Origin: Guyparkeria hydrothermalis
GTDB taxonomy: Bacteria; Pseudomonadota; Gammaproteobacteria; Halothiobacillales; Halothiobacillaceae
Direction of reading: 5' to 3'
Assembly: GCF_023555385.1 (NCBI RefSeq)
Contig: NZ_JAJSED010000001.1
Location: 2,090,311 to 2,154,310 of the forward strand
DNA length: 64,000 nt
Both the position numbers and the translations under genes were made by a program. Below the pieces are notes generated by a model. The model was not told the origin of the DNA. It saw only the letters and a list, made by a program, of their open reading frames with translations, and ran no database searches. Within the stretch, counting starts at the first letter, position 1. Each line of letters begins with the position of its first letter. Of this stretch, positions 2,737 to 35,088 are shown piece by piece.

Positions 2737-4017
2737 ATGACCGATTCCTCCCGTCCCGATGTCGACAAGCGCCGCGCCGAGGCGCTCGAGTACCACGCCC
2801 ATCCGCAGCCGGGGAAGATCGCCACGGCGATCACCAAGCCCACCGAGACCGCACGCGATCTCGCGCTCGCCTACTCGCCGGGCGTGGCCGAGCCGGTGCG
2901 CGCCATCGCCGCCGACCCGGATGCCGCCTGGCAGTACACCGCCCGCGGCAACCTGGTCGCGGTGATCTCCGACGGCTCGGCGATCCTGGGGCTGGGCGAT
3001 CTTGGTCCGTTGGCCTCAAAGCCGGTCATGGAGGGCAAGGGCGTGCTGTTCAAGCGCTTCGCCGACATTGACGTGGTCGATCTCGAGCTCGAGGCCGAGA
3101 ACCCGACGGCCTTCATCGACACGGTCCGCCGACTCGAGCCGTCTTTCGGCGGCATCAATCTCGAGGACATCAGCGCGCCGCGCTGCTTCGAGATCGAGTC
3201 CGCGTTGAAGAAGGCGATGGACATCCCGGTCTTCCACGACGACCAGCACGGTACGGCGATCATCATCGCCGCCGGCCTGACCAATGCCCTGCGCCTGCAG
3301 GGCAAGCGCCTCGAGGAGGCGCGGCTGGTGCTGGTGGGTGCCGGGGCGGCCGGCACGGCGACCCTCAACCTGCTGCTCGACATGGGCCTCAAGCGCAACA
3401 ACCTGCTGGTGGTCGACCGTGTCGGCGTGCTCCACGAGGGGCTCGAGGATCTGCCTGAGCACCACCGGCGCTTTGCCGCGAAGACCGAGGCGCGCACGCT
3501 CGCCGATGCCCTCGACGGAGCGGATGCCTTCGTCGGCCTGTCGGCACCGAACCTGATGAGCGAGGAGATGCTCGCCAGCATGGCGGACAAGCCGGTGGTG
3601 TTCGCCCTGGCCAATCCCGACCCGGAGATCCTGCCCGAGGTCGCCCACACCGTGCGTGATGACCTGATCATGGCGACGGGACGCAGCGACTACCCCAACC
3701 AGGTCAACAACGTGCTGGCTTTCCCGTTCATCTTTCGCGGCGCGCTCGATTGCCGGGCGCGTAGCATCACGCCCAACATGAAGATCGCCTGCGTCGAGGC
3801 GCTGGCGGCGCTGGCGCGCGAGGAGGTGCCGGCCTCGGTGCTGGCGGCCTACGAGCTCGACGAGATGGCTTTCGGCCCCGAGTACATTCTGCCCAAGCCG
3901 TTCGACCCGCGCCTGATCGAGCGCCTGCCGCTGGCGGTGGCCCGAGCTGCGGAATCCGATGGTGTTGCGCGCATGACCTATCGCCCGCATCCGATGCCAG
4001 AGGCCGACCGCTCATGA
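2737..4017 (+). CDS. maeB: NADP-dependent malic enzyme, short form
   Basis: Oxidative decarboxylation of malate to pyruvate with reduction of NAD(P)+. The 426-residue protein holds only the malic-enzyme domains: an N-terminal catalytic half with YSPGVAEP, GDLGPLASKPVMEGK and ADIDVVDLEL, the metal site FHDDQHGTA, then a Rossmann half with VLVGAGAAGTA and FALANPDPEI. The C-terminal phosphotransacetylase-like domain of the long E. coli MaeB (about 760 residues) is absent. Its stop overlaps the next gene by 4 nt, so it leads a three-gene operon. In an autotroph it probably links the C4 pool to pyruvate and NADPH. Confidence 0.94.
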   Translation: MTDSSRPDVDKRRAEALEYHAHPQPGKIATAITKPTETARDLALAYSPGVAEPVRAIAADPDAAWQYTARGNLVAVISDGSAILGLGDLGPLASKPVMEGKGVLFKRFADIDVVDLELEAENPTAFIDTVRRLEPSFGGINLEDISAPRCFEIESALKKAMDIPVFHDDQHGTAIIIAAGLTNALRLQGKRLEEARLVLVGAGAAGTATLNLLLDMGLKRNNLLVVDRVGVLHEGLEDLPEHHRRFAAKTEARTLADALDGADAFVGLSAPNLMSEEMLASMADKPVVFALANPDPEILPEVAHTVRDDLIMATGRSDYPNQVNNVLAFPFIFRGALDCRARSITPNMKIACVEALAALAREEVPASVLAAYELDEMAFGPEYILPKPFDPRLIERLPLAVARAAESDGVARMTYRPHPMPEADRS

Positions 4018-32636: not shown

Positions 32637-33776
32637 ATGGGCACCGATCGCCTGCAATCGACACCGTTGAGCCAGCGCCTGGGCGGCACGCTCCAGTCGG
32701 TGTTCAAGCTCGACCCGATCCTGCTGTTCTTCGTCGCCCTGATCGCCGTCATCGGCGTGGTGGCCGGCTACTCGGCGGCCGAACAGAGCGATGCCTGGGT
32801 CGAGCGCAGCGTGGTGCGCCTCGGGCTAGGCTTTGGCCTGATGCTGGTGATCGCCCAGATCCCGCAGCGCTGGTTCTTTGCCGCCGCGCCGTGGCTGTTC
32901 GCCATGGTGGTGCTGATGCTGGTGGCCGTCTGGCTGGTGGGCGACATGGGCGGCGGGGCGCGTCGCTGGCTCGATCTGGGCGTGATTCGCTTTCAGCCGG
33001 CCGAGTTGATGAAGGTCGCCATGCCGATGACGATCGCCTGGTTCCTCGCCCGCCGGCCGTTGCCGCCGGGGCCGCTGGACGTCACCGTGGCGATGCTGGC
33101 GGTGATGATCCCCACGGTGCTGATCGCCGGCCAGCCGGACCTCGGGTCGTCGTTGCTCATCATGGCCTCGGGATTGTTCGTGCTGTTCTTCGCCGGGCTG
33201 TCGTGGTGGTACATCGGCGGTTTTCTCGCCCTGACGGCCGCGGCCATGCCGGTGATGTGGTTTTTCGTCATGCACGCCTACCAGAAGGAGCGCGTGATGA
33301 CACTGCTCGATCCCGCCAGCGATCCGCTGGGGGCGGGCTACCACACCATCCAGTCGATGATCGCGATCGGCTCGGGCGGCATCTGGGGGAAGGGCTGGCT
33401 GCAGGGCACCCAGTCGCACCTCGACTTCCTGCCCGAGGGGACGACCGACTTCATCCTGGCGGTGTACGCCGAGGAATTCGGGCTGATGGGGCTGGTCCTA
33501 CTGTTCCTGCTGTATCTCGCCGTCGTCTGGCGCGGGCTGTGGATCGCCGAACATGCCGAATCCGTCGAGGGGCGCCTGCTGGCCGCCTCGATCGCCATGA
33601 CCTTCATGGTCTACGTGCTGGTCAATGCCGGCATGGTGCTGGGGCTCTTGCCGGTGGTCGGCGCACCGTTGCCATTGCTTAGTTATGGCGGGACAGCGCT
33701 GGTGACCATCATGGTGGGTTTGGGTATGCTGATGAGCATCCGTACGCAACGAAGTTTTCTGGGGCACGATCGTTAG
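32637..33776 (+). CDS. mrdB: RodA, SEDS peptidoglycan polymerase
   Basis: Glycosyltransferase of the elongasome that polymerises lipid II with PBP2. Ten membrane segments are predicted over 379 residues. The SEDS signatures are visible: GGARRWLDLGVIRFQPAELMK, shown here as positions about 103-123, the catalytic-region GQPDLGSSLL and the C-terminal LPLLSYGGTALV. Its stop codon (33774-33776) forms part of the left arm of the large palindromic element that follows. Confidence 0.97.
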   Translation: MGTDRLQSTPLSQRLGGTLQSVFKLDPILLFFVALIAVIGVVAGYSAAEQSDAWVERSVVRLGLGFGLMLVIAQIPQRWFFAAAPWLFAMVVLMLVAVWLVGDMGGGARRWLDLGVIRFQPAELMKVAMPMTIAWFLARRPLPPGPLDVTVAMLAVMIPTVLIAGQPDLGSSLLIMASGLFVLFFAGLSWWYIGGFLALTAAAMPVMWFFVMHAYQKERVMTLLDPASDPLGAGYHTIQSMIAIGSGGIWGKGWLQGTQSHLDFLPEGTTDFILAVYAEEFGLMGLVLLFLLYLAVVWRGLWIAEHAESVEGRLLAASIAMTFMVYVLVNAGMVLGLLPVVGAPLPLLSYGGTALVTIMVGLGMLMSIRTQRSFLGHDR

Positions 33777-34039
33777 GAACCGCTCGATGATTTGGCGACG
33801 TCTCTGCGGGCCTCCAAGGGCCCAGATGCAAGACGCCGTCCGCGGTGAAGGGCTGTGTCCTTCACAAGGGCGGCAACACCGCAGGTGGGTCCTTGGCGGC
33901 CCGCCCGCTGGGGTACCCGGGCTTGCTCGCGCTCGTTGTTGCCGCCCCTTGATGGGCCGTCAGCCCGCCTGCGATGCGGCGCCTAGATCGCGAACAAGCC
34001 CGGCTGCCAGAGACGTTGCCAAATCATCGAGAGGTTCCT
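33775..34039 (+). repeat. Nested inverted-repeat element filling the mrdB-mltB gap
   Basis: The whole gap folds on itself. The outer arms 33775-33806 and 34008-34039 pair over 32 bp with one mismatch and one G-U pair. Inside are a 19-bp stem (33806-33824 with 33886-33904, one mismatch), itself capped by a perfect 7-bp hairpin (33845-33851 with 33859-33865), and a 14-bp stem (33918-33931 with 33989-34002, one mismatch). Segment 33865-33878 in the first arm is also complementary to 33937-33951 in the second (14 bp, one bulge), a possible loop-loop pairing. The right outer arm contains the GAGAGG ribosome-binding site of mltB (34029-34034). It may be a MITE-like insertion or a structured regulatory RNA. 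Confidence 0.85.
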
Positions 34040-34041
34040 TA

Positions 34042-35088
34042 ATGAAAGACGCATTGGGGCGCGGTTTTAGCCGCTTCCGGAGCGGGGGAAGGACCCTGCT
34101 GTTTTCGCTGCTCGGCTGGTCCGCTCTGACGGGCTCGCTGCCGGCGGCTGCAGGCTATCTCGAACGTGACGAGGTGCAGGCCTTCCTCGATCGGGCGGTG
34201 GACGAGACGGGTGTCGAGCGCGGCCAGATCGAGCAGTGGCTCGGCTCGGCGGTCTATCAGCAGAAGATCATCGATGCGATCACCCGGCCGGCCGAGTCCA
34301 AGACCTGGGGCGAATATCGTCCGATCTTCCTCACCGAAAAGCGCATCGACGGCGGTGTGGCCTTCATGGAGGAGAACGCCGAGCTGCTCGAGGAAGTGGC
34401 GGCAACCTACGGTGTCTCGCCTTACGTGATCGCGGCCATCATCGGCGTGGAAACGTATTACGGTCGGCTGACCGGCGGTTACCGGGTCATCGACGCGCTG
34501 GCGACGCTCGGGTTCGATTACCCGAAGCGGGGCGAATTCTTCCGTGGTCAGCTGATCGAGTTCATCCGGCTGGCGGGCGAAGAGAACCTCGACATGGATC
34601 GTGCCGAGGGCAGCTATGCCGGCGCGATGGGCATGCCGCAGTTCATCCCGTCGAGCTATCGGCACTATGCCGTCGACGGTGACGGCGATGGCGACCGCGA
34701 CCTGTGGGACAGTCGTCACGACGTCTTTGCCAGCGTGGCCAACTACTTCGTCGAGCACGGCTGGGGGCAGGGCGAGCCGGTGATGTTCGAGGTCGACATC
34801 AACGATGCTGACGTCGATGACCTGCTCAACCGCATCCGGGATCTCGAGCCGAAGACGACGCTCGGCGAGTTGCGCGAGCGTGGCGTGTCCGTCCCGGACG
34901 ATGCGCCGGTGCCGGATGATTTCGACGTCATGCTGTTCACCCTGACCGACGGCGACGACGTGAGCTATCACGTCGGGCTGAACAACTTCTATGTCATCAC
35001 CCGGTACAATCACAGCGTCCTCTACGCCACCGCCGTCTGGCAGCTGGCCCAGGCCATCCAACGTCGCCGTGAGAGCGAGGCCGGCTGA
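34042..35088 (+). CDS. mltB: Lytic murein transglycosylase B
   Basis: Cleaves peptidoglycan glycan strands with formation of 1,6-anhydro ends. The 348-residue protein begins with a signal segment (LLFSLLGWSALTGSLPAAAG) without a lipobox, so it appears soluble rather than lipid-anchored. The catalytic glutamate is Glu137 in IIGVETYYGR. Further family motifs are GSYAGAMGMPQFIPSSYRHY, DLWDSRHDVFASVANYF and a C-terminal VGLNNFYVITRYNHS. The start at 34042 follows GAGAGG by 7 nt; the ATG at 33787 would run through the repeat element. It lies between mrdB and rlpA. Confidence 0.95.
   Translation: MKDALGRGFSRFRSGGRTLLFSLLGWSALTGSLPAAAGYLERDEVQAFLDRAVDETGVERGQIEQWLGSAVYQQKIIDAITRPAESKTWGEYRPIFLTEKRIDGGVAFMEENAELLEEVAATYGVSPYVIAAIIGVETYYGRLTGGYRVIDALATLGFDYPKRGEFFRGQLIEFIRLAGEENLDMDRAEGSYAGAMGMPQFIPSSYRHYAVDGDGDGDRDLWDSRHDVFASVANYFVEHGWGQGEPVMFEVDINDADVDDLLNRIRDLEPKTTLGELRERGVSVPDDAPVPDDFDVMLFTLTDGDDVSYHVGLNNFYVITRYNHSVLYATAVWQLAQAIQRRRESEAG

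Follow-up and report, generated by a model that had tools for sequence, protein, structure and literature searches.

The 265-base palindrome that lies between rodA (mrdB) and mltB is a copy of a MITE that is dispersed and carries no genes, and not an RNA specific to this locus. Very probably, an old non-autonomous IS5-type MITE inserted here at an overlapping rodA/mltB stop-start junction, because the palindrome is a member of a family that is dispersed and has terminal repeats and a YTAR duplication, and because the junction is empty and overlapping in most relatives. A striking palindrome is explained in this way as made by a transposon rather than as a new riboregulator, and the empty sites show a MITE that breaks an overlapping gene pair and whose end supplants the original start signal of the downstream gene. 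All coordinates refer to the window (the whole 64-kb stretch of DNA that was analyzed), and all features lie on its plus strand. The two flanking genes, which we take to be rodA (mrdB) and mltB following the preliminary description of this DNA, are an open reading frame at 32637..33776, with orthologs that adjoin mltB in the genomes of the genus, and a gene at 34042..35088 (ATG at 34042-34044) that has a match at E <= 1e-40 in 40 of 40 relatives. The mltB frame stays open upstream through the entire element from an ATG at 33787 (33787-35088, 433 aa), which is probably a by-product of high G+C, an N-terminal extension of mltB being formally possible.

The nested palindrome between the two genes proved to be real, with the arms, stems and cap noted in the preliminary description all recovered. 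The outer arms (33775-33806 and 34008-34039) are 32 nt long, as had been reported, and 94% complementary. Between them lie inner arm A (33806..33904), which consists of a 24-nt stem (33806-33829/33881-33904, 83% complementary) and a cap hairpin at 33845-33865 with a 7-bp stem (33845-33851/33859-33865), and inner arm B (33912..34008) with a 23-nt stem (33912-33934/33986-34008, 83% complementary). The 14-bp complementarity that links the two inner arms also exists (93%), but 3 nt away from where it had been placed, at 33868-33881/33934-33947. The predicted RNA fold of 33765-34050 reaches -182.7 kcal/mol compared to -118.4 +/- 5.1 kcal/mol for 200 dinucleotide shuffles (z = -12.65), none of which (0/200) folds as well as the native sequence, so that the structure is indeed far beyond chance. 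An Rfam scan of the window yielded no family at the gathering score on the palindrome, the matches being tmRNA and one tRNA, both located elsewhere; in addition, no T run follows the stem, in agreement with the original impression that the region resembles neither a terminator nor a tRNA. Strong hairpins between two genes could in principle represent a terminator, an attenuator or an integron-like attC site, but, apart from the missing T run, the 263-bp length with two inner arms and the dispersed copies with target duplications argue against this interpretation, which the copies and their target sites contradict and which appears extremely unlikely.

The profile built for the Guyparkeria MITE family matches 33776..34038 along the full 266 positions of the model (E 1.3e-65), and this is the sole strong match within the 64-kb window. 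The left and right terminal inverted repeats, at 33776..33806 and 34008..34038, belong to the 32-nt arms with 94% pairing described above. The element (263 bp) appears to have no transposase of its own: every frame that crosses it is short or extends into mltB. A BLAST search of the same genome (2.39 Mb, one contig) with the 265-bp sequence detected the window copy and four others with 75-78% identity, and with a less decayed copy as the query, the family is found in at least six places (about 20905, 165444, 181082, 1606896, 2036611 and 2124086). Copies are present in 10 of the 11 Guyparkeria genomes, with per-genome counts that are lower bounds in some of them, and the 14 of the 27 family genomes with a match consist of these 10 and four genomes of another genus. 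When about 85,000 species were scanned with a pattern from the interior of the element, 86 stretches were identified, and 76 of the 80 listed come from Guyparkeria, Halothiobacillus or Halothiobacillaceae records (NCBI taxonomy places Guyparkeria in Thioalkalibacteraceae). The other four listed stretches are from records outside the family; there, L159, L180 and L192 match the MITE over only 29-43 bases, and Nitrococcus (L188) is the only one of the four with a longer match and the nested palindrome. The preliminary description had proposed a MITE-like insertion as one explanation of the palindrome and had held that many further copies would indicate a mobile repeat; the copies found in this genome and its relatives, the terminal inverted repeats, the target duplication and the empty sites in relatives bear out this explanation.

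The family consensus of 266 bp was derived from 87 copies with both ends, which show a mean pairwise identity of 82% (range 52-99%). The ends have the form GGAAnnTCTGCACGAWTC..., with shared terminal repeats of ~22 bp. The left and right ends of the same copy are more alike (identity 0.92-0.97 at positions 1-22) than the ends of random copies (0.67-0.85; 85 copies), and this likeness peaks at positions 16-22 (0.92 within vs. 0.67 between copies). The 92 loci scanned include 5 partial copies and 10, the window copy among them, that are not anchored by the end pattern, which leaves 77 for the count of target duplications. The flanking tetramers are identical in 21 of these 77 anchored copies, several of which represent the same insertion in different species and so are not independent, whereas 6.4 are expected and the maximum among 2,000 shuffles is 15; likewise, the identity of the flanking 4 bp is 0.649 vs. 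0.517 expected (shuffle maximum 0.588). No comparable excess of exact flank matches was detected for duplications of 2, 3, 5 or 6 bp in the same 77 copies. The commonest flank is CTAG, and the target duplication is 4 bp, of the CTAG/YTAR type.

Several observations pertain to individual copies. L079, L080, L081, L126 and L037 are shortened or split, and in the first three, the match to the profile skips from arm A straight to the right end, with arm B seemingly absent. Conversely, some copies in G172, a genome of another family, contain an extra hairpin inserted inside arm A or arm B (L259, L262 and L265), i.e., nested growth. The contig ends of the draft genome G008 are often located inside MITE copies (positions 1-204; seen with the G000 copies L008-L011 and L001-L005), as expected of assembly-breaking repeats. 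Members of the family (L002, L086 and L014) with TAAA duplications occupy the same site in G000, G002 and G003, immediately ahead of the downstream gene; they represent another old insertion shared at a junction between two genes, presumably ubiG-gph. In a limited search of the literature (PMC9032823, PMC6504805, PMC10969869), the two Guyparkeria papers contain no mention of MITE or 'transpos' and three core sequences, discussed below, have no match, which does not by itself make the family new.

Comparison of the rodA-mltB junction across the 11 genomes of the genus shows the site before and after insertion. In eight genomes, the stop codon of rodA overlaps the start codon of mltB, as TGATG in six and TAATG in two, with no element, and in the remaining three (G000, G006 and G002), the element lies between the two genes. 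The window copy is flanked by CGTTA on the left and TTAATG on the right, that is, by a TTA at 33773..33775 and at 34039..34041, which appear to be remnants of the target duplication. This 3-bp duplication deviates from the 4-bp rule of the family and is a point against the insertion scenario, although an original 4-bp TTAA from which one base was lost would fit the rule; the terminal repeats of this copy are so divergent that the end-anchor search missed it. As originally read from the sequence, the rodA stop is at the left edge of the palindrome, GAGAGG is in the right arm and the mltB ATG is located just downstream. The stop codon TAG (33774..33776) consists of the target remnant TA and the first G of the element, and GAGAGG (34029..34034), the ribosome-binding site of mltB, is donated by the right terminal repeat 7 nt ahead of the ATG; both are new and made by the element, the overlapping junctions ending in TGATG or TAATG. 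The insertion converted TGATG or TAATG to TAG...GAGAGG-TTA-ATG, such that the left flank and the first base of the element together form the stop codon of rodA, and the ribosome-binding site of mltB lies in the right terminal repeat. The overlapping pair was probably translationally coupled.

The distribution of the insert presents a puzzle in that nearly identical inserts occur at one and the same base in species that are not sisters. G000, G002 and G006 are found in three separate places of the rodA tree (12 rows) and the mltB tree (13 rows), and the monophyly of the carriers is rejected (p-AU 1.2e-6 for rodA and 7.4e-5 for mltB). For each carrier, the closest or near-closest flank lacks the element, with rodA/mltB identities of 91.4/84.0% for G000-G003, 94.2/91.0% for G002-G001 and 93.6/86.0% for G006-G009. 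The elements themselves are 95.5% identical between G000 and G006, 89.5% between G000 and G002 and 89.1% between G002 and G006. The G000-G006 flanks (84.8 and 77.8%) are less similar than the elements, which argues against a single inherited neutral insertion; when G002 is compared with the other two carriers, the identity of the element is close to that of rodA (89.2, 87.4%) and exceeds that of mltB (77.2, 79.2%). Taken together, these comparisons suggest that the rodA-mltB insert was repeatedly gained, lost or exchanged. Because the carriers form no clade, we think that local recombination exchanged one old insertion between lineages or removed it many times.

An alternative is a site-specific, homing-like element, with the same subfamily inserted three times independently at the exact same base, as could be surmised from elements that are 89-95.5% identical and end at the same bases in carriers from three places of both flank trees. 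Among the matches listed, this subfamily has no other copy that could be the donor, the next best match being 83% over part of the element, and the family target is a common tetramer. Furthermore, the three carriers share the same altered 3-bp flanks, which points to the exchange of one old insertion, as does the last rodA codon, which is CGT in both G002 and G000 but CGC in G001 and others. Independent homing is accordingly a distinctly improbable scenario, and exchange or loss of one old insertion is preferred here.

With regard to the effect on mltB, the sequestration of its ribosome-binding site, proposed in the preliminary description, is borne out by the fold prediction: apart from a bulged A, the unpaired probability of the GAGAGG bases is at most 0.01 in the native fold. 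Masking of the site is thus clearly predicted, with the terminal repeats pairing in the mRNA and covering it. When a modeled ribosome at the rodA stop covers the sequence up to 33785, the unpaired probability of GAGAGG rises to 0.67-0.88, and with a reach to 33788 or 33791, it is 0.21-0.86 or 0.11-0.83, respectively, the site being partly re-paired elsewhere. Coupling of mltB to rodA translation is plausible but weakly supported, because the binding site partly re-pairs at the two longer reaches. Translation of mltB might be lowered, or else tied to the ribosomes that finish rodA and would melt the lower end of the hairpin. In addition, RNase III may cut the long stems, by analogy with other MITEs.

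These predictions could also be accommodated by a cis-regulatory RNA of rodA-mltB, the fold of which would be kept by selection and would couple mltB translation to that of rodA. Such a function would be compatible with the paired native site and its release by the shorter ribosome reach, with the excess similarity of the G000-G006 copies over their flanks, and with the comparison of the G000 and G002 copies, in which 5 pairs are broken vs. 10.3 expected in simulation (P 0.005). However, the corresponding comparison of the G000 and G006 copies is not significant (3 vs. 4.6, P 0.162), and broken pairs are avoided in the same way at other loci, where the number of broken pairs is below the simulated mean in 14 of 15 comparisons and equal to it (0) in one, with P < 0.05 in 5 (these comparisons overlap and involve copies with similar flanks, some of the flank matches reaching only 73%). 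The lack of an Rfam match and the presence of the element in only 3 of the 11 genomes, which do not form a clade and each have an empty near relative, further argue against this possibility, which we consider unlikely.

Covariation of the stems does not change this assessment. In the non-redundant set of 42 copies, from which the divergent L082 and L029 were left out, 40 of the 97 pairs of the fold, including those of both inner arms, show changes on both sides, 96.0% of the cells pair vs. 87.8% after shuffling, and the covariation score is 0.270 vs. 0.125 for shuffled and 0.037-0.062 for slid controls. The preliminary description had taken covarying stems in one syntenic copy as a sign of a cis-regulatory RNA; the stems do covary strongly, but across the whole transposon family, and therefore this covariation is no evidence for mltB regulation. 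The same applies to the G-U pair in the outer arms, which had been thought to favor a fold kept at the RNA level: pairing and covariation are kept family-wide, including copies elsewhere in the genome. The fold is kept across the family, by selection or by hairpin-directed repair, and covariation was not accepted as proof of an RNA function given that the ends and palindromes of transposons can stay alike by other means. The cross-arm pairing was also considered as an alternative fold and rejected, with covariation barely above the shuffle control (0.117 vs. 0.113, 137 of 500 shuffles being as high) and 81.9% of cells paired vs. 81.0% shuffled; the cells that change on both sides number 12 vs. 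6.5 (2 of 500 shuffles).

The most conserved part of the family is a hairpin core within arm A. Its two halves, at 33822..33836 (CCAGATGCAAGACGC in the window copy, CCAGATGCAAGGCGC in the family) and 33873..33888 (GCAACACCGCAGGTGG and GCAACGCCGCAGATGG, respectively), are 96.3 and 94.9% conserved, compared with 88.6% elsewhere in the interior and 85.3% at positions 1-22 of the ends, and both recur in other MITEs. Half 1 was found in 13 of 369 genomes of the class and half 2 in 7 of 398 genomes of the phylum, with 10-21 copies in G643 and G592. At all 21 loci that were inspected after detection by half 2 alone (20 from G592 and G643, one from G000), half 1 is located 52-185 nt upstream; in the four genomes with a single hit to half 2, half 1 was not found upstream within a search range of 330 nt (0/4). 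Besides G172 and G261, the 13 genomes with half 1 include eight non-Guyparkeria genomes with single matches and no second half by eye, and the core pattern with a gap of 20-50 bases was absent from the viral contigs searched.

The core-bearing elements in G592, G643, G261 and Nitrococcus mobilis are MITEs of 142-272 bp that resemble the Guyparkeria MITE in the core hairpin halves and in YTAR-like flanking tetramers. They differ from it in the terminal repeats, which are CAGGCCGTTGAAAAACG in G592, G643 and the diverged elements of G261 and TGTAGTGCCCGCCC in Nitrococcus mobilis, and three of the four possess arm A only; outside the core, they align little to the Guyparkeria family. Because the core served as the query by which all these elements were detected, the sharing does not give its frequency among MITEs in general. 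What requires explanation is a single hairpin core kept inside MITEs with differing ends, and the simplest reading is common descent with turnover of the ends. More tentatively, and with considerable doubt, the core CCAGATGCAAGGCG ... GCAACRCCGCAGATGG, with its symmetric AGAT/AGAT loop and AA bulges, might be a functional module common to IS5-type MITEs that otherwise differ and occur in several families of Gammaproteobacteria. Nearly fixed while the terminal repeats change, it would then be under selection in its folded form, as DNA or RNA, for recognition by a host factor or the transposase or for RNA processing; in Guyparkeria, one element with this core would have been recruited as a movable translation-coupling cassette exchanged between species at rodA-mltB. 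A stretch of 67 bases on a Nitrosomonas plasmid (NZ_CP133084.1, 67478-67544) matches the interior of the G643-type MITE with 91% identity.

The ends and target of the MITE match those of IS5-family elements, as judged by sequence comparison. A search of plasmid records with the end sequence gave 11 records at weak E-values, one of which is an annotated IS5-family element on pADP-1. This element reads TTAG|GGAATCTCTGCACGAATC at one end and, reversed, CTAA|GGATGGTCTGCACGAATC at the other, so that TTAG is present on both sides, and its protein matches NF033581 (transpos_IS5_4; E 1.4e-98) as well as PF01609 and PF05598. In G172, which has 54 matches to the MITE, a decayed element that starts with CTAG|GGAACCTCTGCACGAACCGATAGTG adjoins a truncated IS5_4-like frame, a partial match of 66.7 bits that is under the family cut-off of 140. 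The mobilizing enzyme was probably of the IS5_4 type and now appears to be gone from the genus: the IS5_4 protein query (from pADP-1) and PF13340 found nothing in the 11 Guyparkeria genomes, and a PF01609 candidate partner in one of the 11, G007, was rejected because its 34-nt inverted repeats are unrelated to the MITE ends. The failure of these three queries to find a partner transposase in the genus counts against the assignment to IS5-type MITEs. IS5_4-like genes of the wider family (G019 and G021, 49-50% identity) were likewise set aside, with ends such as CTAG|GGAACCTCTGATTGAATC that are only half MITE-like, as was a plasmid or phage origin of the element itself, blastn giving no match in either collection.

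Among known systems, the closest in its ends is the IS5-family element beside atzC on pADP-1, which shares with the MITE the terminal GGAAnnTCTGCACGAATC and has TTAG flanks that, like the target of the MITE, are of the YTAR type; it differs in being about 1.2 kb long with a transposase gene, whereas the MITE has none and its interior consists of two nested hairpins. Elements of 165 bp on Cupriavidus and Diaphorobacter plasmids (L286, about 3004-3167, and L288, about 3003-3167), situated beside genes, have AGGACCCTCTGCACGAATC-like sequences at both ends, about 165 bp apart, and are probable MITEs with the same end type, although shorter and with another interior. The Correia/NEMIS and ERIC repeats are described as small hairpin-forming repeats next to or within transcription units, with Correia-bearing mRNA cut by RNase III and ERIC affecting mRNA decay (PMC10969869). 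Judging from this account, they resemble the Guyparkeria MITE as hairpin-forming bacterial MITEs in transcription units and differ from it as unrelated repeats of other hosts.
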